DNA from: Bordetella genomosp. 12
Lineage (GTDB): Bacteria > Pseudomonadota > Gammaproteobacteria > Burkholderiales > Burkholderiaceae_B
Assembly (NCBI RefSeq): GCF_002261355.1
Contig: NZ_NEVU01000003.1
Location: forward strand, 186,001-250,000
Direction of reading: 5' to 3'
DNA length: 64,000 nucleotides
How positions within the stretch are numbered: the first letter of the stretch is position 1; each line of letters opens with the position of its first letter. Positions 46,884 to 63,866 of the stretch are shown here, piece by piece. The notes under the pieces were generated by a model. It saw nothing but the letters and a program-made list of their open reading frames with translations, had not been told where the DNA came from and did no database searches. A program made the translations under genes and the position numbers.

Positions 46884-46909
46884 CACGGCCACCAACCGGA
46901 GCTTCCGCC

Positions 46910-47926: not shown

Positions 47927-48962
47927 CCGCTTTGGAGGCAGCCTGCTCACGCGGTTTCTTGAACAGATTGATGAGCGGCCGCTCAAGCAGGTAGTAGACC
48001 GCCAGGCCGGCCACCGTGCAGGCCAGGATGCCGACAACGCAGAAGGCAAGCTGCCCGCCCGGCAAGCTGTCCAGATGCAGTTTGCGCCATGCCTGGCTCA
48101 GGGCCGACAGCACGAAGGCGTGAGAAAGATAAATGGAATACGAGGCGTCGCCCAGCGCGTGCAGCAACCTCAGCCGGGGCAGGGCCTGAAATCTTTCCAG
48201 CAAGATGGCGCCCATGACGATCGCCGCCGCGGGCACTCCCTGCGCCAGGGGCCGCGATGCATCCGGCGCATAGACTGACGCCAGAGCGATGGCGGCAAAG
48301 CCGCCAACGACCGACCCCCATCCCAGAGCCGCCGACCCGCCTTTGTGCGGCCGGGAGAACCACCATCCGACGCTCATGCCCAGCAGGAACTCCAGCACGA
48401 TATCGGAGGTATAGACCTTCAGGATGGGCGTGTCGTCGCCGACCCAGAACCATCCCAGAAAGCTCAGCCCGAACAGCACCAGCGCGGTCACGGCGAAGCG
48501 CCATGCCGTGGGCAGCACCAGCGTGAGCCCGAAGATGACGTAATAAAGCATCTCGTAATTGAGCGTCCATCCCACGGTCAACACCGGCTCTATCAGCCCG
48601 GCGGGGTTGGGCACCATCACGAAGAAATAGGAGGCGACCACATGCAGCAAGCCGAAGCGGGTGGTCTGCATCAGGTGCGGCGCGATCAACATCACGGCCA
48701 CGGCCACGGAGGTAAGCAGCCAGTAAAGGGGCACGATGCGCACCGCGCGCCGGCGGTAGAACTCGAGCACGCCCACTTTCTTGCCGCGCGTGGTGATCCA
48801 CATCAAAAAGCCGCTGAGGACAAAGAAGATGTCCACGCCGGCGGCCAGCCAATGCGGCCAGTATCCCTGGTAGCCCATGCGCTCGAGTTGCGGATAGAGA
48901 TGGACCACCACCACCATCATGGCCGCAATGCCACGCAGATACTGAATCGAGATGATGTCCAT
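47898..48962 (-). CDS. Acyltransferase family 3 (OafA/ExoZ-like)
   Basis: 354 residues, about ten membrane helices. Opening SIQYLRGIAAMMVVVVHLYP with the conserved R and catalytic-type His, GVDIFFVLSGFLMW, and RRRAVRIVPLYWLLT are AT3 signatures. It adds acetyl or another acyl group to a lipid-linked repeat unit at the inner membrane. It is the last gene of the long leftward EPS operon, 65 bp after the flippase gene. Together with the SGNH protein in the opposite operon it indicates that the EPS is acylated. Confidence 0.93.
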   Translation of the reverse strand: MDIISIQYLRGIAAMMVVVVHLYPQLERMGYQGYWPHWLAAGVDIFFVLSGFLMWITTRGKKVGVLEFYRRRAVRIVPLYWLLTSVAVAVMLIAPHLMQTTRFGLLHVVASYFFVMVPNPAGLIEPVLTVGWTLNYEMLYYVIFGLTLVLPTAWRFAVTALVLFGLSFLGWFWVGDDTPILKVYTSDIVLEFLLGMSVGWWFSRPHKGGSAALGWGSVVGGFAAIALASVYAPDASRPLAQGVPAAAIVMGAILLERFQALPRLRLLHALGDASYSIYLSHAFVLSALSQAWRKLHLDSLPGGQLAFCVVGILACTVAGLAVYYLLERPLINLFKKPREQAASKAATRRSVAGL

Positions 48963-49027
48963 GAACGGCTATCCGGTTCGAAAGAGGCGGCCGCGACACG
49001 GCGCGCGGAAAACAGGGCGGGCAGACA

Positions 49028-50302
49028 TCATACCGGCGGCACCTCGGCGTCGCGGCGTACTTCGCCCCAGGCCAGCACGGCCACGGCCAGCCCATAGCAG
49101 GCCTCGCCCACCACGATACCCAGGGCCGCGCCGACCGGCCCGAACCGCAACATGCAGCCATAACTGGTCGCCAGCGCGATCAGGGCGCACACCAACGTGC
49201 AAGCGCTCAGCGCGCGGAAACGCTGGCGCAGAAGCGGCACCATCATGACGGGCTCGCGTATCACCATCAATACGAACAGCCCGATCCACAGCAGCAGCAA
49301 GGTGTCGCGCTGCGGGAAATCCTTGCGCATCAGATCGAGGAAAATCCAGTCCCGCAGCAACCATACGACCGCCCCATACAGCAGCGTGAACATCGCGAGC
49401 GCCAGCGAAAACAGCAGCAGGCGGCGCAGCGTGCGGCGTGCGCCCATGCCGTGCATCCAGCCCGAGGCCAGCGGCGTGAGCTGCTTTTGCATGCCGGCCA
49501 GCAGCAGATTGATCGGCATGAGCGTCAGCCGCGATGCGGCCAGCGCGGCCACCGCGGCCAGGTCCAGCGTCGCGGCCGTCAGGAAGTTGTAGCCCTGATT
49601 GAATAACCAGTAAATCACCCCGCCCGAGGCTGCCCAGAACCCCATCCGCGCGATCTCTCGCAGGCGGCCCGGTTGGGCCTGGGCATCGAGATCGTCGCCC
49701 AGCACGCGTCGCAGCAGCGCCGCGCAGGCCAAGGCGGCCGCCATACCGGCCAGCAGCGCGCCCACCGCCGCGGCCGGGGTCAGCACCGCCAACGCGCAAC
49801 CGGCCAACAACACCAGGACATAGACGGCATCGGCGCCCAGTACCTGCTGCGGCCGGTGATACATGAGCAGGATCCCGCGCAGATATTCGCGATACAGCGC
49901 CGCCAGCACCAGGCCGGTGGCCGCGGCAGCCACGGCAGCCGAAGCCGCATCGAACACCCCCGCTGCCCACGCTGCGGCGATCAAAACCAGGGCCAGCCCT
50001 GCCCCCCACCCGCCCAGATGGCGTTGATCCCGTAGCAGGCTGCCCATCCATTGCCGCCGCTGCGCGGTGTCCAGCCCGGGAAGCCGGATCACCATCGGCG
50101 TACCAATGAAGGTGCCCTGCAAGGTGGTCAGCAGCATCATGGTATTGAAGGCCAGGATGTAATAGCCGTACTGCACCTCGGGCGCGTAGCGGATGAGGAT
50201 CAGGCCGACCCCGAAGTTGGCTGCCGACAGCATGGCCTGGTCTGCGATCGAGCTGCCGAACAGGCGCGCCAGACCCGGGGCTGAAGAACGTGGCCGACTC
50301 AC
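49028..50302 (-). CDS. Wzx-type polysaccharide flippase (MOP superfamily)
   Basis: 424 residues with about twelve membrane helices. GTG start at 50302 overlaps the stop of the upstream GT2 gene as GTGA; the frame is open further upstream but only inside that gene. LARLFGSSIADQAMLSAANF begins the first helix as in O-antigen flippases. An Arg/Asp-rich cytoplasmic segment (RRVLGDDLDAQAQPGRLREI) separates the two halves. It would turn the lipid-linked repeat unit to the periplasmic face for Wzy. Confidence 0.88.
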   Translation of the reverse strand: MSRPRSSAPGLARLFGSSIADQAMLSAANFGVGLILIRYAPEVQYGYYILAFNTMMLLTTLQGTFIGTPMVIRLPGLDTAQRRQWMGSLLRDQRHLGGWGAGLALVLIAAAWAAGVFDAASAAVAAAATGLVLAALYREYLRGILLMYHRPQQVLGADAVYVLVLLAGCALAVLTPAAAVGALLAGMAAALACAALLRRVLGDDLDAQAQPGRLREIARMGFWAASGGVIYWLFNQGYNFLTAATLDLAAVAALAASRLTLMPINLLLAGMQKQLTPLASGWMHGMGARRTLRRLLLFSLALAMFTLLYGAVVWLLRDWIFLDLMRKDFPQRDTLLLLWIGLFVLMVIREPVMMVPLLRQRFRALSACTLVCALIALATSYGCMLRFGPVGAALGIVVGEACYGLAVAVLAWGEVRRDAEVPPV

Positions 50303-51489
50303 CGGTTGCCCCGATCGGTTTTGATCCAGTTTCGATTCCGGCGGTTGCGCACCAGTACCACCAGCTTCCAGAGCACGAAGAAAGGCACGCGCAGCAAATC
50401 CAGCAAGGCTCGCGGCCCCAGCGGGCAGAGTTGCCAGCCGCGCAGCACATGCAGGGCGAGCACCGCCAGCAGGGCCAGCGCCAGCATGGGCCAAAAGAGC
50501 AAGCCGGCGCCCGGCAGCACCCATGCCGCCAGGCCTCCCAGCACGAGCAAAACACCGATCTGCAACACGATATAGCCCAGCGGCAGGGTGAGCAGATCGA
50601 TGGCGAGTTCCAGGCAGACCCAGCTAGGGCGGGTCAGGCCCTGCCGCAACAACGGCAAGACATAGGCCTTGAGCACCGCCATCCGTCCGCCCTCCCAGCG
50701 CTGGCGCTGGGTGCGCGACCCTTTTTCGGATGCCACCAGCTCGGCGTCGGCGCTGGCCTCGTCGATATAGACCACACGCCGCCCGTTCAAACCCAGCACG
50801 ATGCCGTACTCCACATCCTCGGCCATCGAATGGATATTGAAGGGAACCTCGCGCAGGAGGGCGTGCGTCATGCACATGCCGTTGCCGCGCAACCCGTTGG
50901 AGGCGCGCAAGCGCTCGCGCGCCCTGCCCCGCACCGCGTGGAAAGCGCCATAGGCAATAGTGATGATGCGCGTGCGCCAGGAGTCATCCGGATTGAGGAC
51001 ACCGTAGTGAACCTGCATCACCTCGGCTCCCTGCTCCATACGGGCAGCGTAAGCAGCCAGCAGATTGGGCGTGACCTCGGTATCGGCGTCGATGACGGCC
51101 ACGGCCTGGGCGAACCCGTCGGCCGCGCTACGGGCGATGCCGAACTCCAGCGCGTAACCCTTGCCGCGTTGCGTGTCGCTGGTGCGCTCGATCACCAGCG
51201 CGCCCGCGGCACGCGCAAGCTCGGCGGTATCGTCGGTGCAATTGTCGGCGACGACGATGATGCGATAGCACGCGCGTGGCCAGTCCAGCGCGGCCAGGCT
51301 GCGCACGGTGCGCGCGATGACGGCGGTTTCGTTGTGCGCCGGCACGAGCACATCGAAGCGCCAATCGCGCCGTTGCGGCTGGGGCCGTGGCAGGCGTGCC
51401 GACAACAACGTCAATAGACCCAGGTAGCCGCTTGCCAGCGCAACGGGCAAGGCAATGACAAACAGGATGAGATGCAGGAACAAGGCCAT
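50299..51489 (-). CDS. Membrane-associated GT2 glycosyltransferase
   Basis: 396 residues from ATG 51489. One N-terminal helix (LFLHLILFVIALPVALASGY), a GT2 catalytic domain (DVLVPAHNETAVIARTVRSL; AVIDADTEV as DxD; a Glu-Asp pair in MAEDVEYG; RQRWEGGR as Q-x-x-RW-like), and three C-terminal helices. The Q/R-R-W motif is shared with processive synthases, but the protein is in a Wzx/Wzy locus, so it most likely adds a single sugar at the membrane. A start far upstream (51732) is rejected. It is 4 bp downstream of the next GT2 gene. Confidence 0.9.
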   Translation of the reverse strand: MALFLHLILFVIALPVALASGYLGLLTLLSARLPRPQPQRRDWRFDVLVPAHNETAVIARTVRSLAALDWPRACYRIIVVADNCTDDTAELARAAGALVIERTSDTQRGKGYALEFGIARSAADGFAQAVAVIDADTEVTPNLLAAYAARMEQGAEVMQVHYGVLNPDDSWRTRIITIAYGAFHAVRGRARERLRASNGLRGNGMCMTHALLREVPFNIHSMAEDVEYGIVLGLNGRRVVYIDEASADAELVASEKGSRTQRQRWEGGRMAVLKAYVLPLLRQGLTRPSWVCLELAIDLLTLPLGYIVLQIGVLLVLGGLAAWVLPGAGLLFWPMLALALLAVLALHVLRGWQLCPLGPRALLDLLRVPFFVLWKLVVLVRNRRNRNWIKTDRGNR

Positions 51490-51493
51490 GGAA

Positions 51494-52420
51494 TCAGGCG
51501 TACTCTTGATAGCGCCCGCCCCAAAGGACGGACAGTTTCCCGTAGTTGGCGCAGGCGCGCCCCAGCCAATGCACACCATGATGGCTGCCCAAGGGCCAAC
51601 TGAACAGCGCCAGCAGGCCAGCGGCTGCCATCTGGCCTGCGGCGCGGGCGTAAAAAGCCAGCCGGCGTGCGGCACCCGGCCGCGCGCCCAGCCGGCCCGC
51701 TTCAAAATGGATGGCAAAGTCCTGCCCGCCACGCAGGGCTCGCTTGAGAACCCAGGGCACCGTCATGCGGCTGCGGGCGACCGGCTCAACCACCTGCGCC
51801 TCGTCGCACCATACGATGCGCGCGCCCTCGCTGGCCAGACGCATCAGCATGTCGCCATCTTCGCCGCCGGTCAGGCCATAGGCAGGGTTGAATGCCGGCC
51901 CGGCCCGCCGCAGCCATGCCGCCGAGACCAGAAGATTGCCCAAGCGCAGCGCGTTACGCGGGACTTCCTGCCCAGTGCGAAAGCGCGGCCAGTCGAAAAA
52001 ATGCCCGCGCCGTACCCAGGCCGGCGCGTCGGCAGGGACCTCGGGCACCACGGGCGCCTGCACGGCATCCGCGCCAAACGTATCGGCGGCTTGCATCAGC
52101 AGCGCCAACCACTGCGCAGGGGCGCGCTCGTCATCGTCGATCATGGCCAGCCATTGGCCCTGAGCCAGGTCCACCGTCATGTTGCGCGTCAGCGAGATAT
52201 TCTTCTGCGGCTGGATCGCATAGTCCAGCCGTACGCCCAAGCCCTGCAAGCGGGCCTGGTGCGGCGCGACCACGGTGCGGGCACTGCCCTCGGCGTCGTT
52301 GTCCACCACCACCACCTGCAGGGGCAGCAACGTCTGGGCGGCCAGATCGCTCAACAGCGCATCCAGCAAAGGCAGGCGCCGGTAGGTGGCAATGCAGACG
52401 CTGATGGCGGGCGCGCTCAT
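51494..52420 (-). CDS. GT2 glycosyltransferase
   Basis: 308 residues, soluble or peripherally attached. ISVCIATYRRLPLLDALLSD, VVVVDNDAEGSA, MIDDDERAPAQWL (DxD), GGEDGDMLMRLA and a C-terminal hydrophobic stretch (FYARAAGQMAAAGLLALFSW). It transfers a sugar to the growing lipid-linked repeat unit. Its ATG overlaps the stop of the glycoside hydrolase gene by 4 bp, so translation is coupled. Confidence 0.92.
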   Translation of the reverse strand: MSAPAISVCIATYRRLPLLDALLSDLAAQTLLPLQVVVVDNDAEGSARTVVAPHQARLQGLGVRLDYAIQPQKNISLTRNMTVDLAQGQWLAMIDDDERAPAQWLALLMQAADTFGADAVQAPVVPEVPADAPAWVRRGHFFDWPRFRTGQEVPRNALRLGNLLVSAAWLRRAGPAFNPAYGLTGGEDGDMLMRLASEGARIVWCDEAQVVEPVARSRMTVPWVLKRALRGGQDFAIHFEAGRLGARPGAARRLAFYARAAGQMAAAGLLALFSWPLGSHHGVHWLGRACANYGKLSVLWGGRYQEYA

Positions 52421-54675
52421 GGGGTGTCCTCGTAGACGAATTCGTACCAGGGGCTGGCGTCACCGCCGGTTTGCACCCGCACCCGCGCGGCACCCTGCTC
52501 AACGCTGACCAGCGAGGCCGATAGCGGCGCACGCCGGCGGCCTTGCCCATCCAAAGGATAGACCGTCAGGCGGCCGGCGCGGGCCGACAGGCCGAGTGTC
52601 GCCGGCATCCGCCGCAACCAGGCCGGCGGCCGCGTGGCATAGTCGCCAGACGGCCCGGCGCCCCCGGGATCCGGCTCCAGTGTCAGAAAGGCCGTTTGCC
52701 CACGATAGGGGATACGCAACTTCGGGCGTTGCGGCATTGAGCCGGGCTGGGTGCCCGTCGTGTCGTTGCCCAGACTCAGCAACAGATGACGCGCCTGCGC
52801 CAGCGGCTGGCCATCCAGCGCGGTCAATATGGCGGCTGCCGTGCCTGCCGCGTCAAACTGCATCCAGGCGGCCTCGCCGGGCAAGCGCTGCGTGCCCACC
52901 GCGCCGAACACCGCCCAGACATCCGGCGTTTGCAGCATCACCTGCCCGTCGCCCTGCGTCAGTGCCGTCGAGGCCGCCTGCCGCGGCACGGACACCTCAG
53001 CCCCGGGCCCGGCCTTCAGGTCCAGACCCAATCGGCCTTGCAATGCCCAGCCGGGCTGAACACCCAGCCCCTCGATCAGGCCATGCGTGATGGCGTCGAA
53101 GCGCCGGTCCGCCCCCCACCGCAAGCGGGCGTCAGCGCCCACGGGGATATCGACCTGCAGGGGCAAGGCAGCAATGAGCGGCTGGCGGAACAACCGCGCG
53201 CTCTGCCCTGCCAAGGCCATGCGCCCCCAATCCCCGCTCAGGGCAAAGCGCGCGGGCGCCTGCGGCAGCGATGGGGTATCGCTGTAATCGAAGTAAAACA
53301 AGCCGTCCCAGTCCTGCAAGGCCGCCATGGCGCTCATCAGAGGCAGTATCTCCGCGCCGCGAGGGTTGGGAAAAGGCAGGTTGAACTCGCTGACGACGAA
53401 AGGCCGCTGACGGTCGCGCCGCAACGCCAGCGCCAACAACCGGGAGAACTCCTTATCGCTGGCGTTCAGGTCCGGGATGCGCCAATCCTGGGCGCCGCGG
53501 ATATCCGGGTGCGCGATGTAAAAATGCTCATCGATATAGTCCATGGCGGGCTGAGCATCGGCGTTCATCAATCCACCGTAACCCATTTGTGTGCCCGTCA
53601 CGGGTACTTCAGCCCCGGCGGCATCGTGCACAACCTGCCGCAGAAGCTCGAAATAGGCTTGATCGGTGGCCGCCAGGAAACGCATGAAGTCCTGCTCACG
53701 CGCACCGACGACGCCCGGTTTGCCGGTGCCGAACCAGGTGCTCAGGCGCCTCGCAACCCCCGCGCGCAGCTGGGCCAGACCGGTTTCGTACAGCGGCTGC
53801 TGGCGGCCAGGCTCGGGAAAGTCGTCGGCGTCATCGGCCGCGCAGCCGCCCCACCGGGCACATGCCTCTTGCAGCGACCCATACTTGCGCACTAGCCATT
53901 CACGCCAACGCATGCGCAGTTGCGGCGCATACGCGGAAGGAATGGCCGCCTGCCAATCCGGGCCCAGCCATGCGGCCAGCAAGGAAGACTCGTTATTGAT
54001 CTCCACCAGGGCCAGAGCGGGATTGTCTTTCAAACCCAGCAGCGCGATCAGTTGCCGCGCGTAGGCCTGCTGCATGGCGATCAGGCGGGGATCATAGACA
54101 TGGATGGGCGCGGTCAGCGAGGGCATCTCGGCCCCGCCATCCAGTGCCGGCAGGCCATCGACGCTGGGCCGGAAGCGGTAACCCACGTGCAGGTTCAGAT
54201 TGATATAGATGCCCTCGGCGGCTAAGGCGCCGATCAGCCCGCGCAGACGCGCCACGGCGCTGCTGCTGAAAGTGGGAAACGGCCCAGGCGTCAGGATGCT
54301 GATGGGGGCATCGGGAATGTCGGACGGTAGAGAGTCGAGATGATGCAGGCGCACCGCGTTGAATCCCAGCTTGCGCAATTGCCGGGCCAGATCGGTGGCC
54401 TGGCGCGCATCGGGGAAATTTGCGCCGAAAGACAGGTTCACCCCGAACAGACGCGCCCGCCGGTCCGCCTGCCCATCGCGGCCCACAAAAAACAAGTGGC
54501 TGCCCCGCGCCACGATACGGGAGGCCGCATCCAGGGGGTGGTTCAATCCTGCCACGTCCGGCGCGCCGCTCAGGGCAGCAGGCTGCATCTCGAACACGAA
54601 CCAGTCCGCCGTTGCGGCCACGCCGGCGGCCGGGCCCGCCAGCGCCAGGCAGCAGGCTGCCACCCAGCGCTTCAT
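52417..54675 (-). CDS. Secreted glycoside hydrolase of GH5-like (clan A) type
   Basis: 752 residues with signal peptide (VAACCLALAGPAAGVAATA). Residues about 75-480 are a TIM barrel: LFGVNLSFGANFPDARQATD, FNAVRLHHLD, the acid/base Glu229 in VEINNES, and the nucleophile Glu430 in FVVSEFNLPF. The remaining ~270 residues are beta-rich accessory domains. It is a predicted periplasmic or secreted hydrolase acting on the EPS, for length control, release or turnover. The ATG overlaps the Wzy stop (ATGA), which ties it to polymerisation. Assignment to one GH family is not certain. Confidence 0.82.
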   Translation of the reverse strand: MKRWVAACCLALAGPAAGVAATADWFVFEMQPAALSGAPDVAGLNHPLDAASRIVARGSHLFFVGRDGQADRRARLFGVNLSFGANFPDARQATDLARQLRKLGFNAVRLHHLDSLPSDIPDAPISILTPGPFPTFSSSAVARLRGLIGALAAEGIYINLNLHVGYRFRPSVDGLPALDGGAEMPSLTAPIHVYDPRLIAMQQAYARQLIALLGLKDNPALALVEINNESSLLAAWLGPDWQAAIPSAYAPQLRMRWREWLVRKYGSLQEACARWGGCAADDADDFPEPGRQQPLYETGLAQLRAGVARRLSTWFGTGKPGVVGAREQDFMRFLAATDQAYFELLRQVVHDAAGAEVPVTGTQMGYGGLMNADAQPAMDYIDEHFYIAHPDIRGAQDWRIPDLNASDKEFSRLLALALRRDRQRPFVVSEFNLPFPNPRGAEILPLMSAMAALQDWDGLFYFDYSDTPSLPQAPARFALSGDWGRMALAGQSARLFRQPLIAALPLQVDIPVGADARLRWGADRRFDAITHGLIEGLGVQPGWALQGRLGLDLKAGPGAEVSVPRQAASTALTQGDGQVMLQTPDVWAVFGAVGTQRLPGEAAWMQFDAAGTAAAILTALDGQPLAQARHLLLSLGNDTTGTQPGSMPQRPKLRIPYRGQTAFLTLEPDPGGAGPSGDYATRPPAWLRRMPATLGLSARAGRLTVYPLDGQGRRRAPLSASLVSVEQGAARVRVQTGGDASPWYEFVYEDTP

Positions 54676-56054
54676 GTCCGGCGCTCCGTGCGAACCCGAG
54701 CACCGCGCGGCGCAGCCGGCCCGCCTGGGACCTCGCGCCCGACGCGCATGCGGGCATGCGCTAAGGCCAGACGGCCGCTGATGGCCAGCGACGAATAAAT
54801 GAACATGATGTTCTGGAAGTTGGTGTCGCGCAGGATCTGGCTTTCCGAGAAGTTGCTGATCATGATGGTCACGCAGATACTCAGATGGATGGCAGCATCC
54901 TCCCGGTCTATCTTGTAGAGCCGCATGATGCTGATCACATGCCAGGCCAGGCAACCCAGAAACAGGCCCATCCCCACTTGTCCCAGGTCCAGCAGAATAT
55001 CCAGATAGCCGTTGTGCGCCTGGCCCGGCAGCCAGCCCAGCTTGGTGCCGATGTACTGAGAGGGGCCGCCCTCGCCGACCCAGAAGGCGCTGTACCCTAT
55101 CCCCAGCAGCTTGTGCCGCTGGATGGAAACGTCGGCCAAGGCCCAGATCTCGCCGCGGCCGGTCAGATCACTGCTCTTGTTGAACAGCGTCGTGACGACC
55201 AGCACCACGTCATCGATCTCCGGCATGCGCCCGACGGCCACGTAGAACACCAGCAAAAAATAGAGCAAGAGCAGCAACCCGCTCAACAACAGGATCTGGC
55301 CGGTGTGCCGGCCCCCGAAGAAACGTTTGCGCGTCAGCAGATAAATGCCCACGCCCAGGCCGGTGACCAGGATCGAGGTCGCGCTCTTGGTCATCACCAG
55401 CATGAACGCGCTGAAGACCACCCCCATCAAGGCCAGCCCCCGGATCTGCGGCGTCATGAAGAACTCGCGCAACCACAGCAACACGGCAAAGCCGGCGATG
55501 GAGCCCAGCATGTTCTTCTGCCAGGTGATCCCGCGCCAGGCGTTGCCCAGCAACACATCCACCCCCACACTGGGCACCAGCAAGGCCACGAAAAACGACA
55601 GCACGAGAACGATGGAATAGGTGCCGAGGACGACGCGCAGGAATTGCCGCGGGCTGCTCAACGGCGGCGCCACGGCCAGGCCGATAAGCACCAGCCCGGC
55701 AAAAATGATGGTGCGCTTTAACGTAATGTCGGGATAGGGTGACCACGTCGCGCTGCTCAGGCAGTACAGCACCAGCAGCAGCAAAAAGAGATTGGAACCG
55801 CGCAGATTGCTCAGGACGGTGGGCAGATGCCGCCATGCCACGAAGGCGGCGCCCAGAAACAGCGACGCATATTGCACCTGCCGCAGCATCGATCCCTGCA
55901 TCACGGTGTGCGTGGCTTCCGGCCCCAGCTCACTGACCGACAAGGTGTCCGGCACGATGGCAAACAGCAGGCTCAGACCGACGAGCAGCCACACCGCCCA
56001 GCGATCCCCACGGCTTTGCCCACCGGCGATCGGAAGGACAGGAGGCGCACCCAT
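54672..56054 (-). CDS. Wzy-type EPS polymerase / O-antigen ligase-like protein
   Basis: 460 residues, ten to twelve membrane helices. The conserved periplasmic-loop region is LTGRGEIWALADVSIQRHKL followed by GIGYSAFWVGEGG and AHNGYLDILLDLGQVG, the WaaL/Wzy (PF04932) signature. Placement between the GH and EpsG genes in a Wzx locus favours polymerase over ligase. There is no ATG conflict: the start follows the EpsG stop by 11 bp. Confidence 0.92.
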   Translation of the reverse strand: MGAPPVLPIAGGQSRGDRWAVWLLVGLSLLFAIVPDTLSVSELGPEATHTVMQGSMLRQVQYASLFLGAAFVAWRHLPTVLSNLRGSNLFLLLLVLYCLSSATWSPYPDITLKRTIIFAGLVLIGLAVAPPLSSPRQFLRVVLGTYSIVLVLSFFVALLVPSVGVDVLLGNAWRGITWQKNMLGSIAGFAVLLWLREFFMTPQIRGLALMGVVFSAFMLVMTKSATSILVTGLGVGIYLLTRKRFFGGRHTGQILLLSGLLLLLYFLLVFYVAVGRMPEIDDVVLVVTTLFNKSSDLTGRGEIWALADVSIQRHKLLGIGYSAFWVGEGGPSQYIGTKLGWLPGQAHNGYLDILLDLGQVGMGLFLGCLAWHVISIMRLYKIDREDAAIHLSICVTIMISNFSESQILRDTNFQNIMFIYSSLAISGRLALAHARMRVGREVPGGPAAPRGARVRTERRT

Positions 56055-56065
56055 GGCCGCGCTCG

Positions 56066-57034
56066 TCAGCCGCGCAGGCGCGCGGGCAACAGAGACCGCA
56101 AACGGGCCAGCCAGCCTCGGCCGCCACGCGGATCGTATTCGTTATAGACCGTGCCCAGCACCCGGGCCCCGGCGTTCTCGAGCAGATCGGCGCTGCGGGT
56201 CAGCGCATTGAGGGAGGTCAGGTCCTTGCGCGCCACCAGCAGGCAGGCATCCACCTGGCGCGCGATGCTCTGCGCATCGGAGGAATCTGCGGCCGGCGGG
56301 GTATTGACGATGAACACCTCGTACTGATCGGCATAGGCCGCCAGCACGCGTCCGAGCGCCGGCTCGCGCAGCAGTTCAGCCGGATTGGGCGGCTGCGGAC
56401 CGGCATCGAGCACTCCCAGCGCGGGAAAACCCGGCACGGCACGGCTCTCGCCCGCCGGCGCGCGGCCCGCCAATATCGCGGACAGCCCCGCACCGCTGGC
56501 GCTGCCCAACAAGGTCTCCTGCCCGCTGGCGCGCAGGTTGGCGTTGACCAGCAACGTGCGCCGGCCGGTCTGGGCGAACGCAATCGCCAGGCTGGCGCTG
56601 AGGTAGGCGCGGCCTTCTTTGTCCTGCGGACTCACCACGGCCAGCGCGATACGGGGCAGCTCCTCTAGCCGGATGGAGATCTCGGCGCGAATCTGGCGGA
56701 TGGCCTCGGCTTCCCGGCCGAAAGGCATGGCCGCAATGGGCAGGGTGATGTCGGTCTGTTGCGCTGAAGCGTAATCGTAACGGTACTGCTCGGCCAGCAC
56801 GGCCTGCACCCGCTCTTCGGTGACAAACCCCAGCTTGACCGCAGCCTGGCCGAACCGCAGTTGCTCGGCCTGCTGAAGCTGCACCACCTGCGCGACCTGC
56901 GCTTCGGTCAACACCCCCAGGCGCACGAATCGCTCGCCCATTTTCTCGGCGGGTTCGAAGCTCTCCAGCGGGGCTTGCGGGCCGCCGTTATGGTTCAGGC
57001 GATCGAACAGCGGCAGCAGTTTGGGATCGCTCAT
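56066..57034 (-). CDS. epsG: EpsG-like chain-length protein tyrosine kinase homologue with degenerate ATP site
   Basis: 322 residues from ATG 57034 (ATGA overlap with the preceding gene). Residues about 25-90 resemble the MshEN/T2SSE N-terminal fold, known for c-di-GMP binding in some proteins (FVRLGVLTEAQVAQVVQLQQ and RFGQAAVKLGFVTEERVQAV). The C-terminal ParA/BY-kinase-like domain has VVSPQDKEGRAYLSASLAIA in place of a Walker A, LLVNANLRAS in place of the usual LLIDADLR, and VFIVNTPPAAD in place of Walker B. All these acidic positions are Asn and no GKT/S is present. There is no C-terminal Tyr cluster. It is therefore likely a pseudokinase scaffold or ligand sensor for the EpsF protein. Confidence 0.85.
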   Translation of the reverse strand: MSDPKLLPLFDRLNHNGGPQAPLESFEPAEKMGERFVRLGVLTEAQVAQVVQLQQAEQLRFGQAAVKLGFVTEERVQAVLAEQYRYDYASAQQTDITLPIAAMPFGREAEAIRQIRAEISIRLEELPRIALAVVSPQDKEGRAYLSASLAIAFAQTGRRTLLVNANLRASGQETLLGSASGAGLSAILAGRAPAGESRAVPGFPALGVLDAGPQPPNPAELLREPALGRVLAAYADQYEVFIVNTPPAADSSDAQSIARQVDACLLVARKDLTSLNALTRSADLLENAGARVLGTVYNEYDPRGGRGWLARLRSLLPARLRG

Positions 57035-58410
57035 GGGGCAACCGCCACAGGCTTGCGACCCACCCGGCCCAGAACAGGCAGAGTGGTACTGCGCTCCAGA
57101 TCGTCCAGGCAACGGACGCGGCGACGGCTCAGTTCCAGGATGAGCGCCAGGGCAAGCCCGGCCATCAGCCCGATCACCAGGCCAAGCAGCAAGCTGCTGC
57201 GCACACGCGGCCGCGACGGCGACGAAGGCAATTCAGCCGCCCGCAACACCGCCAGACTGGGCAGGGAAATATTGCTGGCCATCAGGATGCCATCGTATTT
57301 TTGCAGCGCGGTCTGATAGACCTGCTCCACGCCGGCGAACTGCCGCTGATAGGCGGCGATCCGGTCGAGCTTGGCCATCTGATCCAGAACCTTGGCTTTC
57401 TGCGCGTCCATATCATGCTGCAAGGCGGCGTGCTGCGCCTCCAGCCGCTGCACATCGCTGTCGAGCGCATCGACGGCCGCCTTGGCCTGACGGGCGATGT
57501 CGGCCTGGAACTGCGCGCGCTGGGCCAGCAAACCCGCCACGCTGGGATGCCGGGGGCCCAGCGCCCCGCGCAATTGCCCCAATTGCTGCTCCACCACCGT
57601 CAAACCGTTGCGCAAATCATTGATGGGGGCGATCTGCCCGACTTCCGGCAGGTCTTCCGGCCGCATGCCCGCAGCCAGCAGACTGGCCGTCGTCGCCTTG
57701 CGCGCACGGGCGGCCTCCAGCTGCGACTCCAGCCCCAGCAGGGACGTTGCCATATCATTGAGACGGCGCACATCGATATCCCCGCCTGACTGGCGGGTGT
57801 CGACGATGCCGGCTTCCTGTTGGTAGCGCGTCAGTTTGTCCTGAATCGCGTCCAATTCGCCGCGCAACTGCTCCAACTGCGCGGTGTACTGCTCGGTGCG
57901 CGCCCGCGCCGCGGCCGAGGAAATCCCCTGGCTGACCGCGATATACGAATTGACCACGGCGTTGGCAAACTCGCGCGCCTTCTGCGGGGTATTGGCCGAA
58001 AAGGAAACCGTCAGCACCCGGCTGTTCTGCTGTTTGACGACTTCCAGATGGGTTCGGATGTAATTGACCAGATCATTGCGGGCGGCCGACCCCGAGCGGG
58101 CGTCGTCCCCGGAGAGCAGCCCCAGGCTGGTGATGACATGATCGGCCACCGTCTGGCTGCGTATCATGTCGATCTGGGTCTGCATGTAGCTCTCGTCCAA
58201 GAGGGCCGAAAATGAGCGGCCGCTGATGGGATCGTTCTCGCGGTAATCGATGAAGACATCCGACGATGCCGTCCAGACGCGCGGCAAAACCAGCACGAGC
58301 AGGCAGGTCAAGGCCAGGGTGCCGACGGCGACCCACGCGACCAGCCGGGCGCGCGCGACGAGCATCGCCCAAACCTGGTTCAACGATAGCAGACTGTATT
58401 CAGGGCTCAC
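57031..58410 (-). CDS. epsF: Chain-length determinant protein (Wzz/EpsF-like PCP)
   Basis: 459 residues with a GTG start. Two membrane helices (LVAWVAVGTLALTCLLVLVL; SSLLLGLVIGLMAGLALALI) flank a large periplasmic coiled-coil domain (residues about 160-390: EQYTAQLEQLRGELDAIQDK, DSDVQRLEAQHAALQHDMDA). LPSSPSRPR before the second helix is the PCP proline motif. It controls chain length and couples polymerisation to the OPX channel. It is the first gene of the leftward EPS operon epsF-epsG-wzy-GH-GT-GT-wzx-AT3. TAGAAT at 58444-58449 on the minus strand is a possible -10, but I see no matching -35. Confidence 0.92.
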   Translation of the reverse strand: MSPEYSLLSLNQVWAMLVARARLVAWVAVGTLALTCLLVLVLPRVWTASSDVFIDYRENDPISGRSFSALLDESYMQTQIDMIRSQTVADHVITSLGLLSGDDARSGSAARNDLVNYIRTHLEVVKQQNSRVLTVSFSANTPQKAREFANAVVNSYIAVSQGISSAAARARTEQYTAQLEQLRGELDAIQDKLTRYQQEAGIVDTRQSGGDIDVRRLNDMATSLLGLESQLEAARARKATTASLLAAGMRPEDLPEVGQIAPINDLRNGLTVVEQQLGQLRGALGPRHPSVAGLLAQRAQFQADIARQAKAAVDALDSDVQRLEAQHAALQHDMDAQKAKVLDQMAKLDRIAAYQRQFAGVEQVYQTALQKYDGILMASNISLPSLAVLRAAELPSSPSRPRVRSSLLLGLVIGLMAGLALALILELSRRRVRCLDDLERSTTLPVLGRVGRKPVAVAP

Positions 58411-58492: not shown

Positions 58493-58543
58493 AAAAATTC
58501 GTCCGCCGGGGTCTTTCGCCCCTGATGCCCCCACGCCCGGCGG
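58493..58543 (-). terminator. Probable terminator after the YbjN-like gene
   Basis: CCGCCGGG (58503-58510) pairs with CCCGGCGG (58536-58543). Read on the minus strand, the stem is followed by ACGAATTTTTGC, giving a T tract. It lies about 50 bp past the stop at 58593 and would separate the protease operon from the EPS operon. Confidence 0.55.
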
Positions 58544-58552
58544 CTCGTGCCA

Positions 58553-58579
58553 GGCAGGCGGCGGCACAGGCCGCCTGCC
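58553..58579. repeat. Strong GC hairpin just after the YbjN-like gene
   Basis: GGCAGGCGGC (58553-58562) and GCCGCCTGCC (58570-58579) are perfect 10-bp arms around a 7-nt loop. No T tract follows. It probably protects the mRNA 3' end or assists termination together with the neighbouring stem. Confidence 0.6.
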
Positions 58580-58592
58580 GGGGATCCCGGCC

Positions 58593-59036
58593 TTACTGCG
58601 CCTTGAATTCGCGCATGATGCGGGCAAATTCCTCGGCGCCGTTATTGAGCATGCGGATGTAGCGCACGAACAACTTGGCATCGAGTTGCGGCTGGCTGGC
58701 GGAAATCAGGAACTCCACCGCGCCCATGACGTTGGCGTTATCGCCCGAGGCGTAGATTTTCACGCCCTTGCAGCGGCCGTTGACCATGGAGATCGCCTGC
58801 AGGGCGGCGGCGAACTCCTCGTCATCGTCGAGCGGCCAGAAATTGGGAAACACCAGCCGCACGAAGTCTTCGTCGTCGGCGTCCGCAATCAGGATATAGC
58901 TGCGGCCATCCACCTTGAAAACGAGGTCAGAGGTCTGCGCCTGATCATCCCACTGGATCTGGCCGCGATTGAATCCCTCGCTATCGAGCAAGGACTGGAA
59001 GTAGCTGGTCAGTTTTTCGACTGATTCACGGCTCAT
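58593..59036 (-). CDS. YbjN-domain-like protein
   Basis: 147 residues from ATG 59036; an upstream in-frame extension to 59207 lies inside the neighbouring gene. SVEKLTSYFQSLLDSEGFNR, LVFKVDGRSYILIADADDED, FVRLVFPNFWPLDDDEEFAA and VNGRCKGVKIYASGDNANVM fit the YbjN fold, related to type III secretion chaperones. Members are thought to act as chaperone-like or adaptor proteins; the exact role is unknown. It is the last gene, 41 bp after the large membrane protein, in an operon with the FtsH-like protease, which suggests a substrate adaptor (inference). Confidence 0.75.
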   Translation of the reverse strand: MSRESVEKLTSYFQSLLDSEGFNRGQIQWDDQAQTSDLVFKVDGRSYILIADADDEDFVRLVFPNFWPLDDDEEFAAALQAISMVNGRCKGVKIYASGDNANVMGAVEFLISASQPQLDAKLFVRYIRMLNNGAEEFARIMREFKAQ

Positions 59037-59077
59037 GGTAGGGGAACTCCGATAAGTGAACAAAAAGGGATGCGCGC

Positions 59078-61039
59078 TCAGCCCGCATCCGGCCCGCCGC
59101 CGCGGCGCATCACGCGCACCACGAACATGATCAGGGCGATCAAAAATACCAGAAACAGCAATTGCGACGACGAGGCCAGGGAGCTGTCGCGCCATTGATC
59201 CAGGCATTCGGGGCTGGGCTGCTGGTGCAGCTCGACCTCATGGCGCGCACATTCAAGCATGGCCGCCGGCGCCCGGGCCGTGGGCAAGCCTTCCGGCCCG
59301 GCGGCCGCGGCCGCCCCCGGGTTACGCAGCCAGTACGCAAAAGAGAACGCATCGGTGCCGGCCTGCAAATCGCGGTGATCCTGGATCCGGCTGCCGATCT
59401 CCAGCAAAACGAAGCTGGCCGTCACGCCGAGCGCGGCGTTACGCAAACGCTGCTGACTTTCCTGGCGGATGTCCTCGGCCTTGCGGGCCTCGGCCGCCAC
59501 ATGGCGCAAGCGGGCTCGCACCGTGCTCTCGTAGCTGTTGACCAGCTCTTTGAGCGCAAAGATCTCATCGAGCTTGCGCGACGACTCTTCCGGGATCAGG
59601 CCCGGCGGCTCGCTGCGCCCCATGCGGCCGAGCTGCACATCCATATTGGCCTTCATCAAATCGGCCAAGGCACGATTGAGCACGTTCTCGATCTGATCAT
59701 TGATCGAGATGGCTACGCGTTCCTGCAGGCTCAAGCGTTGCGTGCCCAGCGCATAGCAGGCGCAGGCCAGCACGCCGAAAATGACGGCCCATATCGCGCC
59801 ATCGCCGAAGGGCGCCTGCCATGCCGACAGACGGGTCAGCACACCCGTGGCGCCCTCGAAAGGCGCCAGGACCGGATGCACAGACAGCCACAGCAGGGAC
59901 AGAAAAACCCCCAAGGCCGACGCGTGCCCCAGACCGGTGACGAGAGTCTGCACCCGCCCGTGCTTGATTTGCTCAGGCAGCCAGGCGCGCCAGGCGTACC
60001 ACGCCAAGGTTCTCAGATCCCGCCACCGCAGGCCGGAGGCGGTATTCATGGCGGACTTGAAATCCTGAGGCAATTTCTGGCAATGCTCCGGAATCACCGG
60101 CACGGCATCCGGCACCCCCTCCCGCCAGGAGTTGCCCGCGTCGTCATACTTATAGTCGAACAACTGCTCCAGCAGATCGCACAGCTCGCGCAACAGGCGC
60201 GCCCGCAACAGTGTCGAGATATCCGGCAAGGTCTGCGCCCGCTGTATCAGCTGGCGCAAATCCTCGAGCCGATTGATGCACAAGGCAAGATTGGCCTTGC
60301 TGCCGGCCACCTTGGCCAACAAGGTGGCGCGCAGAACGATGCCGTAGCGTGCCGCGTCGTTCTGCAGACTCGCATCCCACATCAGCGCCCGGCAGGCGGC
60401 GCTGGCCAACTGCACATGGTCGAACGCAGAATCCGGCGGCGGCGGCTCCAGCCTCACCCGGGCCAGCAGATCCTCGTTGAGGATGGCCGCGCCCTCGTCT
60501 CCGCTGATCGCCGAGATGCGGATACGGTCGGTGCGTTTGAAATCCTTGGCGCGGTCCAGCGACAAGGCCGGCTCGCCCGTCGCCGCGCGCGGCCGCTTCT
60601 TGCCGGACTGCCCTTGCGGCAGCGGCGTTGCCGCCTTCTCCACAAACGCGGGCTGGGCGGCGGCTTCACCCTGCTGGATACGCTCGGCCGCCCGCTCCCG
60701 GGTAAAGAGCTCGTCCTTGGCCGGAATGCGCTGATTGATCAGGCGCGCACTGTCGGAGCGCTTATTGGCGTTTTCTGTCGAGGGCGCCTGACTGCCGAGC
60801 GCGGCACCTGGCTGGGCACCGCCGGAAAACGGCATGGCGCTGAGCACCACGGCGAAGTTCGCCTGCTCCACGCCGCGCTCGTCGGCCTCGGCGAAGCAAT
60901 GCACGCGTTCGAGAAAATGGCTGTGCAGACTGAAACCATCACACCACTTGGCCAGATCGTCCAGCCACCTGGCCAGGCTATCCGGTCGTGCGTCGGTCAC
61001 GGCGCCTTGCGGCGCGTCGGGGCTGGCTGCCTCACTCAT
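59078..61039 (-). CDS. Large membrane protein of unknown function
   Basis: 653 residues that I do not recognise. Residues 1-200 are soluble, acidic-basic mixed and partly low-complexity. Residues 205-300 are helical and Leu-rich (LLRARLLRELCDLLEQLFDY). Hydrophobic helices lie at about 364-388, 414-431 and 624-642, with a shorter one at 534-549. A long charged coiled-coil-like stretch (435-535) lies between them. Residues 590-620 contain two Cys (MLECARHEVELHQQPSPECL). The ATG overlaps the stop of the FtsH-like gene as ATGA, so the pair is made together. It may be the membrane platform that the soluble protease lacks (inference). Confidence 0.8.
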   Translation of the reverse strand: MSEAASPDAPQGAVTDARPDSLARWLDDLAKWCDGFSLHSHFLERVHCFAEADERGVEQANFAVVLSAMPFSGGAQPGAALGSQAPSTENANKRSDSARLINQRIPAKDELFTRERAAERIQQGEAAAQPAFVEKAATPLPQGQSGKKRPRAATGEPALSLDRAKDFKRTDRIRISAISGDEGAAILNEDLLARVRLEPPPPDSAFDHVQLASAACRALMWDASLQNDAARYGIVLRATLLAKVAGSKANLALCINRLEDLRQLIQRAQTLPDISTLLRARLLRELCDLLEQLFDYKYDDAGNSWREGVPDAVPVIPEHCQKLPQDFKSAMNTASGLRWRDLRTLAWYAWRAWLPEQIKHGRVQTLVTGLGHASALGVFLSLLWLSVHPVLAPFEGATGVLTRLSAWQAPFGDGAIWAVIFGVLACACYALGTQRLSLQERVAISINDQIENVLNRALADLMKANMDVQLGRMGRSEPPGLIPEESSRKLDEIFALKELVNSYESTVRARLRHVAAEARKAEDIRQESQQRLRNAALGVTASFVLLEIGSRIQDHRDLQAGTDAFSFAYWLRNPGAAAAAGPEGLPTARAPAAMLECARHEVELHQQPSPECLDQWRDSSLASSSQLLFLVFLIALIMFVVRVMRRGGGPDAG

Positions 61040-63315
61040 GCCGCCGCATCCCCCACCACGGCCAGCAGGGCTTTGCGGTCCAGCACGTGCTCGGCCTGCA
61101 GCTTCTCGCTCAGGGCGTCGAGCAAACCGCGCTGCCCATCGAGCAACGCGCGGGCCCGAAGGAACTGCTCGGCGATCAACGCCTTGGTCTCGGCCTCATC
61201 GGGCGACAGAGTATGCCAATTGGGGCTGGTGACGCTAAAACCGTAGGCGCCCAGCGCCGCTTCGGCCAGCCGCCGGGCAACGGCCAGATCATTGTGGCTG
61301 CCGTATCCGCCGGCCCCCGTGCTGACCGCGCTATCGCCATAGACGATGGCCTCGGCGGCGCGGCCGGCGAGCACCATGCAGATACGGTCGAGCAACTCTG
61401 CGCGCGTCTGATTGTGTTCGGCGCTTTTGATCCCCACGAAACCCAGCGCACCCTGATCATCGGCCACGACCGAAGCCAGCTGCAAGTGCTCGCGCAAACT
61501 GGGCAGCAACAGCCCCACCAAGGCGTGCCCGGCCTCGTGGTAGGCCGTGCGGGCCAGCTGCGGCCCGTGCAAGGGATTGCGCGCGGCTTGCGGCGGAATA
61601 CGGAAGATCTCGTCCTGGATGTCTTGCGCCGTGATCGCGCGGTTACCGTCTAGCCGGGCGCGGCGGCGCGCGCCGCGTACCAGCAACTCCACGTCGGCGC
61701 CGGTCAAACCCAGAGACAGGCTGGCGCAGCGCCGCAGATCGTCCGGCGCGATCTCATAGGCGTAGGGCTTGAGCTTGGCCTGATAAATGGCCACCAGCGC
61801 CGGCACATCGGGACGATTGATCGTGATGACGCGGTCCAGGCGGCCCGCGCGCTGCAGCGCGGGGTCGACATTGTCGGCATGGTTGGTCGCGCCGATGACG
61901 ATCACCTGGCTGCGGTCATCAAAGCCATCGAGCTCGCTGAGCAGCGCATTGAGAAACGCCGTGTTCCAGGAGGCATTCTGGCCCTGGAAGGACTCGCGGT
62001 TGCCCAGCGTATCGATCTCGTCGATAAACAGGATGCTAGGCGCTTGCTGGCGCGCCGCGGCAAACGTGGCCGACATCAGTTGCACACACTCGTCCAGCCC
62101 GTTGCCGACCATCCAGTCCTTGACCGGCGCGACCGCCGTAAAGGCAATACCGCAATCACGCGCGATCGCCCGTGCCAGCGTGGTCTTGCCCGTGCCCGGC
62201 GGCCCGGCGAACAACGCCCCCCGGTCGACTTCCTTCCATTGGATTTCGCCGCGCATGGCCAGCCGCAAGTCGTTGAACAACTGCGCTGCCCAGCGCTTGG
62301 CGCTCTCGACGCCATGCAGATCCTCCAGGCGCATCGAGCTGCCCGCGGACTGCGCCTGATTGCGCTGATCGGCCAACTGGCGCAGGCCGGCCAGCCAATC
62401 GTGCTCAAACTTCAGGGTGTTGACGCACAACAACTCCTGCGGCCCGATGGCCGAAGCCCAGGCCGGCGTGATGGCCGACAGATCCGCGCCGGGAAAACGC
62501 TGGCGCGCGTAATCGGCCAGCCGCTCGGCGTTCATCAAGGGAATGCTGAGGTATCCATCGCTGCGCACCAGCGACAGGAACTCGCGCGGCAACTGATTGC
62601 GCGAGGTGCAAAACAGAATCATCCCGAAAGCGCGCTGCTCGGCCATCCGGATCACCAGATCCTGGAAGTCCGCCGTCACGCGCGTATCGAGCTGATAGGT
62701 GTTGAGCGCCGGGCAGAGATTGGCCAACGCGCTGCGCAAATGCTTGGCATAGCGCGGAAACGGATTCTCGACGATGAACACAGGCAGCAAGGCATTGGCC
62801 TGCAAGCGCAATTGGATCTGCTGTGCCACCGGCATGACGAAGAACTCCCAGACATCCTGGGTATTCGGGTCGACCGGTTCGTCCGCGTCATTCACGGAAT
62901 CCGGGTCTTCCGGCGGGCGCGACAGCCCCGGCAGCGCGTTGCGGCGCAGGCGAGCCAGCACATGCTCGGAAATCGAACGTGCCGATCCTGGTGCCGGCAC
63001 CGGCCGGACCGGCCGTGCGGCGGGCTCGACCGGCTCGACACGCTCGGCTGGCGCGGCCTGCTCGCCCCGGTCGGCCACCACGGGGGCCGCGGCGGCCGGC
63101 GCGGGCCGGGATGCCGGGGAGGCGGGCTTGCCCTTGCGGGCAGCCAATTGGCGCATCAGCTCCGCCTGCACCTTGCGGCCGCCGGCCGGCGCGGGGCGTG
63201 CCGCGGCCTCGGTGATCGCGCCGGCCGCTGCCGTCTCCTGAACCCTGGCGCTGGACGGCGCCGTCACCGCAGTCTTGCCAAAGTTGCGGATCCAGTCCGT
63301 AATCTCACCCACCAT
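61036..63315 (-). CDS. Soluble FtsH-like AAA+ ATPase with M41 metalloprotease domain
   Basis: 759 residues. Residues 1-155 are Ala/Pro-rich and disordered-looking, with no transmembrane helix where FtsH has two. Residues 155-320 form an unrecognised alpha/beta domain. The AAA+ module has Walker A GPPGTGKT (371-378), pore-loop-like MVGNG (402-406), Walker B ILFIDEID (428-435) and the second region of homology ATNHADNVDPALQRAGRLDR. The M41 zinc site is HEAGH (593-597) with the third ligand Asp676 in HNDLAVARRL, so both activities look intact. A GTG at 63312 is an alternative start because GGAGG sits only one base before the ATG. Predicted cytosolic ATP-dependent protease, coupled to the membrane protein downstream. 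Confidence 0.9.
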   Translation of the reverse strand: MVGEITDWIRNFGKTAVTAPSSARVQETAAAGAITEAAARPAPAGGRKVQAELMRQLAARKGKPASPASRPAPAAAAPVVADRGEQAAPAERVEPVEPAARPVRPVPAPGSARSISEHVLARLRRNALPGLSRPPEDPDSVNDADEPVDPNTQDVWEFFVMPVAQQIQLRLQANALLPVFIVENPFPRYAKHLRSALANLCPALNTYQLDTRVTADFQDLVIRMAEQRAFGMILFCTSRNQLPREFLSLVRSDGYLSIPLMNAERLADYARQRFPGADLSAITPAWASAIGPQELLCVNTLKFEHDWLAGLRQLADQRNQAQSAGSSMRLEDLHGVESAKRWAAQLFNDLRLAMRGEIQWKEVDRGALFAGPPGTGKTTLARAIARDCGIAFTAVAPVKDWMVGNGLDECVQLMSATFAAARQQAPSILFIDEIDTLGNRESFQGQNASWNTAFLNALLSELDGFDDRSQVIVIGATNHADNVDPALQRAGRLDRVITINRPDVPALVAIYQAKLKPYAYEIAPDDLRRCASLSLGLTGADVELLVRGARRRARLDGNRAITAQDIQDEIFRIPPQAARNPLHGPQLARTAYHEAGHALVGLLLPSLREHLQLASVVADDQGALGFVGIKSAEHNQTRAELLDRICMVLAGRAAEAIVYGDSAVSTGAGGYGSHNDLAVARRLAEAALGAYGFSVTSPNWHTLSPDEAETKALIAEQFLRARALLDGQRGLLDALSEKLQAEHVLDRKALLAVVGDAAA

Positions 63316-63360
63316 GCCTCCCGGGGCCCCGGGGCCCTGATTCGGATATTAACGACCGCG

Positions 63361-63385
63361 AAACCCGGCCTCGAGCGCCGGGTTT
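63361..63385. terminator. Hairpin terminator between BCCP-like and protease genes
   Basis: AAACCCGGC (63361-63369) and GCCGGGTTT (63377-63385) are perfect arms around a 7-nt loop. On the plus strand the stem is followed by T, and on the minus strand it ends in TTT. It lies about 70 bp past the stop at 63456, separating that gene from the protease operon. Confidence 0.6.
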
Positions 63386-63455
63386 TCAGCAAGGCACGTA
63401 TTTAATCCGAAAATGCAAGCAGATGAAAGTATCGATCTTGCGGCGCGACAAAAAC

Positions 63456-63866
63456 TCAAGGCATATCAGGCGCGAGCCTAAACAGTTCCTGGGCATAAGC
63501 CACGAGGTCGCCATCCTGCACCAAGGATTCGGCCACAGTTCCGCTGAACTCGCTGCTCAGTGCCCGCAAGCGGTCTCCAACCTGCAAAAATCCCAAGCTA
63601 TCGCCCACGGCAACCACCGTACCCGGACCCGGGGCACCGGTATCCTGATCGCGAAAGGGATGATGGCTGCGATAAATGCCTATGTCATCGGCGCGTAAGG
63701 AACGACCACGCGGCGAGGGGGGAAACTCCGCAGTGGCGGCCTGGCTGTCCGCGGTTCCCAACCGCAGCCGCAGTCGTTCGCCATCCGGCTGCGTGAGTTC
63801 GCAGGTGAGCACATTGTTGGCTCTTAGCGCCAGGACCAAAGCCTCGACTTCTTCGATCTTTATCAT
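63456..63866 (-). CDS. BCCP-like barrel-sandwich protein lacking the biotinyl lysine
   Basis: 136 residues. The C-terminal half matches the biotin/lipoyl carrier fold (IGIYRSHHPFRDQ; VVAVGDSLGFLQVGDRLRAL; FSGTVAESLVQDGDLVAYAQ; ELFRLAP). In biotin carboxyl carrier proteins the hairpin reads VEAMKM. Here the aligned residues are LQVGDR, with Asp98 at the lysine position, so it cannot be biotinylated there. Its ATG overlaps the stop of the biotin-carboxylase-like gene (ATGA). Similar carrier-like proteins occur in KipI/PxpB-type 5-oxoprolinase neighbourhoods, but no such gene is visible before the window edge. Confidence 0.82.
   Translation of the reverse strand: MIKIEEVEALVLALRANNVLTCELTQPDGERLRLRLGTADSQAATAEFPPSPRGRSLRADDIGIYRSHHPFRDQDTGAPGPGTVVAVGDSLGFLQVGDRLRALSSEFSGTVAESLVQDGDLVAYAQELFRLAPDMP

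Follow-up and report, generated by a model that had tools for sequence, protein, structure and literature searches.

Proteases that combine an AAA+ ATPase with an M41 zinc-peptidase domain (AAA-M41 proteases) are known as membrane-anchored enzymes. For FtsH, an N-terminal transmembrane (TM) domain is given as a typical feature in part of a review of the family (FtsH review PMC9020784). The DNA analysed here, a stretch of 64,000 nucleotides from Bordetella genomosp. 12 (hereafter the window), encodes a protease of this type that has no membrane helix of its own and is followed by the genes for a membrane protein and a YbjN-like protein, which raises the question of where, and with which partners, such an enzyme could act. 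The answer to which our analyses lead, and which we hold at slightly less than even confidence, is that the protease of this operon, a zinc enzyme driven by ATP, acts at the inner membrane in spite of lacking a membrane helix. Read from sequence in this way, the operon suggests that bacteria have a membrane-associated machine for protein degradation that has not been described before, and there is a real chance that it represents a new type of membrane protease assembly.

The three genes follow one another in tandem on the minus strand of the window, and all three reading frames are open (viz. 61036-63315, 59078-61039, and 58593-59036). Gene 1 (61036..63315) encodes a 759 amino acid (aa) TM-less AAA+/M41 (FtsH-type) protease, as judged from its open reading frame (ORF), Pfam, alignment, hydropathy and a tree; gene 2 (59078..61039) encodes a 653 aa membrane protein without a family match (ORF, profile searches, and hydropathy); and gene 3 (58593..59036) encodes a 147 aa divergent YbjN-like protein (ORF, Pfam, and alignment). 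The predicted overlap of 4 bp between genes 1 and 2 (stop/start, 61036..61039, minus strand) is confirmed and is retained in all six known copies of the unit, whereas the gap ahead of gene 3 measures 41 bp in the window and 30–49 bp across copies. The operon had also been predicted to be closed on both sides by hairpins, and this part does not hold: GC-rich stems are found at both ends (63345-63410 and 58535-58600), but their stability does not exceed what chance would give (z-scores -1.32 and -1.47; of 200 shuffles, 18 and 17 fold equally well), and a terminator scan of the window listed 5 sites against 4.1 expected, which is no excess, and none at either end of the operon. The boundaries of the unit thus rest on gene order in its relatives and not on hairpins.

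The product of gene 1 matches the Pfam families AAA (E 4.8e-32) and Peptidase_M41 (E 8.8e-21, covering positions 10-110 of the 191 in the M41 profile), which place the AAA+ domain at residues 368-500 (61816..62214, minus strand) and the M41 protease domain at residues 589-696 (61228..61551, minus strand). Its key residues comprise the Walker A (371-378) and Walker B (430-435) motifs, the arginines at 489, 492, and 495, the zinc-binding motif HEAGH (593-597; 61525-61539, minus strand) and Asp676 (61288-61290, minus strand), and all of these are invariant in the six aligned sequences (window included) save for an Ile/Val exchange at 431. The presence and conservation of these motifs bear out the earlier statement that the AAA+ module (Walker A, Walker B, SRH) and the M41 zinc site are intact, and the absence of the FtsH N-terminal membrane domain is likewise upheld, no TM segment being flagged in gene 1 by a hydropathy scan. 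The protein begins with a conserved segment of 14 residues (63274..63315, minus strand; from alignment and hydrophobic moment), followed by a variable Ala/Pro-rich linker. This segment is amphipathic (in four of the six sequences its hydrophobic moment, taken over 11 residues, is 0.52–0.63) and is possibly a docking or membrane-contact motif. The region that follows, which we refer to as the N-domain (residues 137-325; 62341..62907, minus strand), has no convincing Pfam match and a mean column identity of 93% in the six sequences. In bins of 25 residues, identity to the window copy is 0.22–0.39 up to residue 100 and 0.78–0.98 across residues 126-325; over the last nine residues of the protein it is 0.36.

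Gene 1 shares with FtsH (TIGR01241) its domain order, viz. AAA+ and then M41 with HExxH and a downstream Asp, but it differs from FtsH in having no N-terminal TM segment over the hydropathy threshold, in carrying a pore stretch that contains a Trp and is unlike that of the resident FtsH, and in having extra residues ahead of the third zinc ligand. That FtsH is the product of another M41 gene in the same genome and is canonical, with two flagged TM segments. A tblastn search with gene 1 identified AAA-M41 or AAA genes in 2179 plasmid records, none of them spanning 80% of gene 1. From plasmids we took 21 loci, 11 from this search and 10 from a second search baited with the Rhizobium protein L054, which favours the TM-less type. 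Six of these loci encode FtsH with flagged N-terminal segments (L050, L055 with one only, L056, L070, L071, and L073); the other 15, all labelled "soluble" ahead of tree building, include 12 without any flagged TM segment and three (L053, L060, and L072) with one each. A tree of 28 rows, midpoint-rooted without an outgroup and containing one long branch (L052), splits the TM-bearing FtsH rows from these 15 loci and the window family with support of 100/100, and joins the window family to the Azospirillum locus L053 at 88/91, which is below the starred support level. The 15 plasmid rows form one side of a branch in just 3% of 200 bootstrap trees, so that the window family lies among them. By eye, 14 of these 15 relatives have a Trp in the pore stretch, and all of them have additional residues ahead of the third zinc ligand; in view of these common characters and of the tree grouping, the TM-less state appears to be a trait of a wider group, which includes proteins of alphaproteobacterial plasmids annotated as "AAA family ATPase". 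We found no family name for these plasmid proteins, and no description of them among the matches listed in searches of open-licence PMC full text.

The plasmid proteins differ from gene 1 in their company: at none of the 15 loci is a relative of gene 2 or gene 3 found within the 3.5–5 kb on each side of the match (best E-values 0.61 and 0.35), and a protease of this type therefore does not need genes 2 and 3. Since gene 1 groups with TM-less proteins that have neither gene nearby, the TM-less state probably preceded the pairing with gene 2, as far as a tree without an outgroup root can indicate. The earlier proposal of gene 2 as a replacement for the missing anchor loses strength accordingly. 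In profile comparisons by hhalign, the N-domain of gene 1 aligned with 14 N-domains of other TM-less AAA-M41 proteins over 93 columns (P 0.0024, probability 12.4), while P was 0.12 and 0.18 for subsets of these, 0.013 for four N-domains, 0.68 for a single sequence, and 0.26 for the reversed control, so that a possible weak relation among these N-domains is only suggestive. Two plasmid matches (H1 and H3) appeared at first to extend into the N-domain, but both turned out to be FtsH copies with TM segments and were kept as TM-bearing rows of the tree; a degenerate AAA domain was also considered for the N-domain and rejected, the comparison giving no useful AAA-domain match (hhalign P 0.22; reversed 0.42).

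The membrane protein encoded by gene 2 could not be placed in the original prediction, which had named membership of a known unrelated family as refuting, and our profile searches likewise connect it with no known family: there is no match at E<=1 in Pfam, NCBIfam or PADLOC, and its profile gives 0 matches at E<=10 to PDB sequences. One PHROG match was obtained at E 0.26, and a match to Peripla_BP_3 in two of the six aligned sequences (best E 0.034) was taken as chance. Averaged hydropathy predicts three clear TM segments, viz. TM1 (residues 373-391; 59867..59923), TM2 (414-432; 59744..59800), and TM4 (626-644; 59108..59164), and one possible segment, TM3 (535-553; 59381..59437), which is weakly hydrophobic (1.17) and highly conserved (all on the minus strand). 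A stricter scan of single sequences (threshold 1.6) flags three segments in the window copy and two or three in its relatives. A loop of the protein contains two invariant cysteines (597 and 612); because TM3 is weak and the strict scan gives fewer segments, the topology of gene 2 and the side on which this loop lies are uncertain. Conservation is uneven along the protein: identity to the window per bin is 0.12–0.37 up to residue 225 and 0.60–0.71 at residues 226-275, and the most conserved bins are those at 426-575 (0.62–0.87) and 601-650 (0.68–0.77).

The description of gene 3 as YbjN-like is upheld in a qualified form, as that of a divergent protein of this type. In comparison with the Pfam family YbjN (PF10722), the window copy scores 15.3 bits against a cut-off of 22 bits; of four relatives two pass (22.3 and 22.7 bits), a third reaches 15.0, and the fourth gives no match, and a match at E<=1 is seen in five of six gene 3 relatives (best 8.9e-5). 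These profile matches point to a divergent member of the YbjN/AmyR/DR1245 family (PF10722), from which the window copy differs in falling below the cut-off. The genome also holds another YbjN match, which passes the cut-off at 39.6 bits. The invariant Ser83 and Asn86 of gene 3 fit Ser78 and Asn81, residues noted as conserved in AmyR in part of one study (PMC5398634; matched by eye and by hand), and the gene 3 sequence profile has no match at E<=10 to a YbjN structure.

A scan baited with gene 2, covering 84,980 species by one genome each and reaching close relatives only, identified 5 relatives among 35 candidate stretches. With the window this makes six copies of the unit, the others being from three Achromobacter, Bordetella sp. 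02P26C-1, and an Alcaligenaceae metagenome bin, and all six keep the gene order 1-2-3. A profile search of the window's family detects gene 2 in 6 of 268 genomes (4 of 43 genera), and a separate profile search for the N-domain of gene 1 detects it in the same six, which are the five scan loci and the window's own genome; the two are never seen apart. The gene 3 profile matches 28 of the 268 genomes, and its seven strong matches (E < 1e-70) comprise the same six and G003, a genome of the same genus. Genes 1 and 2 are thus linked without exception in the genomes searched, and gene 3 is linked to them near-strictly. The co-occurrence that the original prediction had proposed to check across Burkholderiales is seen in the sense that all six copies keep the three genes, but the unit is not general in that order, being found in four genera of a single family. 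Gene 2 is absent from the 14 other genomes of the window's genus that were searched and has no match in 72,556 plasmid and 50,697 phage records; it was found in 2 of 399 genomes of an order sample (both of them family members already counted, with none beyond the family) and in 1 of 190 of a phylum sample (its own), and the N-domain was found in 1 of 249 genomes of a phylum sample (its own). Viral contigs likewise yielded no relative of either gene 2 or the N-domain. The gene 1 profile, at a threshold of 1e-60, identified only its own genome among 274 of a class sample; as few candidates were scored per genome in these searches (at most three in the class search with gene 1, and at most three, four, and six in the order, family, and phylum searches with gene 2) and the class search used this threshold, a distant relative could be missed. 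The ratios of dN/dS are below 0.5 in all three genes for pairs with a computable dS (0.07–0.16 for gene 1, 0.05–0.19 for gene 3, and 0.12–0.45 for gene 2, the fastest-evolving of the three), and they are rough, since 9 of 15 comparisons with the metagenome bin gave no dS and dS was near or above 1 in many other pairs.

The reading that we favour, a protease at work at the membrane, draws on the intact motifs, the gene order and overlap seen in all six copies, the unbroken linkage of N-domain and gene 2, the dN/dS values, the lack of flanking genes common to different genera among those compared, and the conservation of the N-domain and of residues 426-575 of gene 2. It is weakened by the 15 TM-less loci without genes 2 and 3, by the lone gene 3 homologue of G003, and by the weakness of TM3. 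Recruitment of the protease to the membrane is the likeliest mechanism that we infer: gene 1 would form a hexamer and use its N-domain (137-325) to attach to gene 2, at conserved stretches that are predicted to be cytoplasmic and lie between TM2 and TM3 (roughly residues 433-534), perhaps with the first 14 residues on their flexible linker docking there as well, and gene 2 would thereby put the protease at the membrane. Gene 2 may also sense something through the loop with Cys 597 and 612, which a genuine TM3 would place on the outer side of the membrane. Gene 3, as a putative class I secretion-chaperone-like protein of the YbjN type, would be a non-enzymatic binding partner, either a chaperone of gene 2 or an adaptor that brings substrates; YbjN proteins are described as acting through protein-protein interactions without enzymatic action (PMC5398634). 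Parts of two other studies suggest a chaperone activity for DR1245 (PMC3575483) and present YbjN as a homologue of T3SS chaperones whose function has diverged (a 2026 study; PMC13092808). In its most specific form, namely that a separate polytopic membrane protein both recruits and gates a soluble FtsH-type ring, that a YbjN-type protein is the dedicated substrate adaptor, and that the functions of FtsH are thereby split over three genes, the proposal is less likely than not. The nearest working analogy is provided by the FtsH-HflKC and QmcA complexes, in which a membrane protein likewise associates with an AAA-M41 protease; the protease there has its own anchor, and gene 2 differs in having no match to a Pfam family at cut-off. 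Literature searches returned no system of this three-part composition among the matches listed. The claim that no such system has been described thus survives for gene 2 and for the set of three, which have no match in the libraries searched, but has to be narrowed for the protease, as FtsH-like proteases that lack a TM segment are found elsewhere too: the novelty lies in the combination of such a protease with this particular membrane protein and a YbjN-like partner, the protease type itself having relatives. If the reading is true, a conserved TM-less protease tied to a separate membrane protein would show an outsourcing of both anchoring and substrate choice, and the poorly understood YbjN fold would gain a testable partner.

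An alternative, which we regard as unlikely, is that gene 2 acts as the principal substrate or effector instead of as the anchor, the protease degrading a membrane-active gene 2 product for which the YbjN-like protein is the chaperone, until stress or infection releases it. The invariable association of N-domain and gene 2 in the 268 genomes suits this arrangement too, as do the evolution of gene 2, the fastest among the three genes, the patchy distribution of the unit (6 of 268 genomes), and an integrase gene adjoining two Achromobacter copies; the strongly conserved C-terminal half of gene 2, however, fits a working partner at least equally well, and neither gene 2 nor gene 3 has a PADLOC match. 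Very slightly less likely is a machine of two parts, protease and membrane protein, with the YbjN-like gene co-transcribed and serving another process. That a gap precedes gene 3, while genes 1 and 2 overlap by 4 bp, would accord with this, as would the YbjN-like gene of G003 (L034 7485-7922), which is 68% identical to gene 3 and stands without genes 1 and 2 (no match in 16 kb around it, and none in the family-wide searches for gene 2 and the N-domain). On the other hand, gene 3 follows in all six copies with a conservation similar to that of the protease, and the G003 gene may be a remnant of a lost operon.

It is improbable that the operon is an accessory anti-phage or stress-defence unit, a role that TM-less AAA-M41 genes on alphaproteobacterial plasmids may have. 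The patchy distribution would be expected of such a unit, and among the 15 plasmid loci one has a CBASS cyclase gene (L067) and one a KwaB-like gene (L060) nearby; the plasmid location itself is no evidence for defence, as these relatives were sought in a plasmid collection only. In PADLOC, matches are confined to the AAA part of gene 1 (IetA, TRIP13, and others), genes 2 and 3 having none, and a defence neighbourhood in Alcaligenaceae was not supported, the ten flanking proteins giving only weak matches (at best LmuB 0.0012 and PDC-S15 0.0064). The IetAS defence system pairs an IetA-type AAA protein with a subtilisin-like partner. Gene 1 differs from it in that the IetA models match its AAA part only (78.6 bits at best), with genes 2 and 3 outside any such match. 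That gene 1 is an ordinary second copy of FtsH, which has lost its anchor and serves general cytosolic quality control, is highly improbable, for although its best NCBIfam match is FtsH_fam (223.6 bits), this score is far below the curated FtsH cut-off of 600 bits, the tree sets gene 1 apart from the TM-bearing FtsH rows at 100/100, its pore segment differs, and it is linked to gene 2.

The plasmid loci also draw attention to TM-less AAA-M41 proteins in their own right. In five of the 15, an annotated metallophosphoesterase lies downstream of the TM-less AAA-M41 gene (L051 4629-7765, L054 4413-7234, L060 3660-6246, L065 3228-7042, and L067 3099-5782); at L068 a metallophosphoesterase gene lies upstream and is encoded on the opposite strand. 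By eye, L063 has a similar ORF, and several of these plasmid loci have a hypothetical gene of about 200 aa upstream. This arrangement of a TM-less AAA-M41 gene with a metallophosphoesterase is possibly an undescribed defence-type system.

In its genomic surroundings the unit looks self-contained and patchily kept. Flanking ORFs are common only to the Achromobacter loci and none is shared between genera among those compared, a comparison in which ORFs were picked by length and the window offers just 0.7 kb upstream of gene 1 and L010 0.6 kb. The G+C content of the operon ranges from 51.5 to 68.3% and is in each case within 3.6 points of that of its own locus. Achromobacter sp. RTa and A. agilis have about 7.6 kb of upstream DNA in common, which includes, immediately ahead of the operon, the gene for a tyrosine integrase that has an Arm DNA-binding domain (L006 5785-7209 and L007 5766-7190; family search on the L006 copy). 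A common integration site was considered and rejected, the flanks being common to Achromobacter copies only and no tRNA gene being found in the six sources scanned. Upstream of the window copy lies a gene for a biotin-carrier-like protein (63456-63866; weak matches), and by eye five genes upstream resemble a biotin-dependent carboxylase/5-oxoprolinase-type cluster (G000:C1:249456-253483), at whose end the gene for the biotin-carrier-like protein stands. Downstream, the region 45951-58410 is, by eye, an apparent surface-polysaccharide cluster, which includes a Wzz-like protein at 57031-58410.
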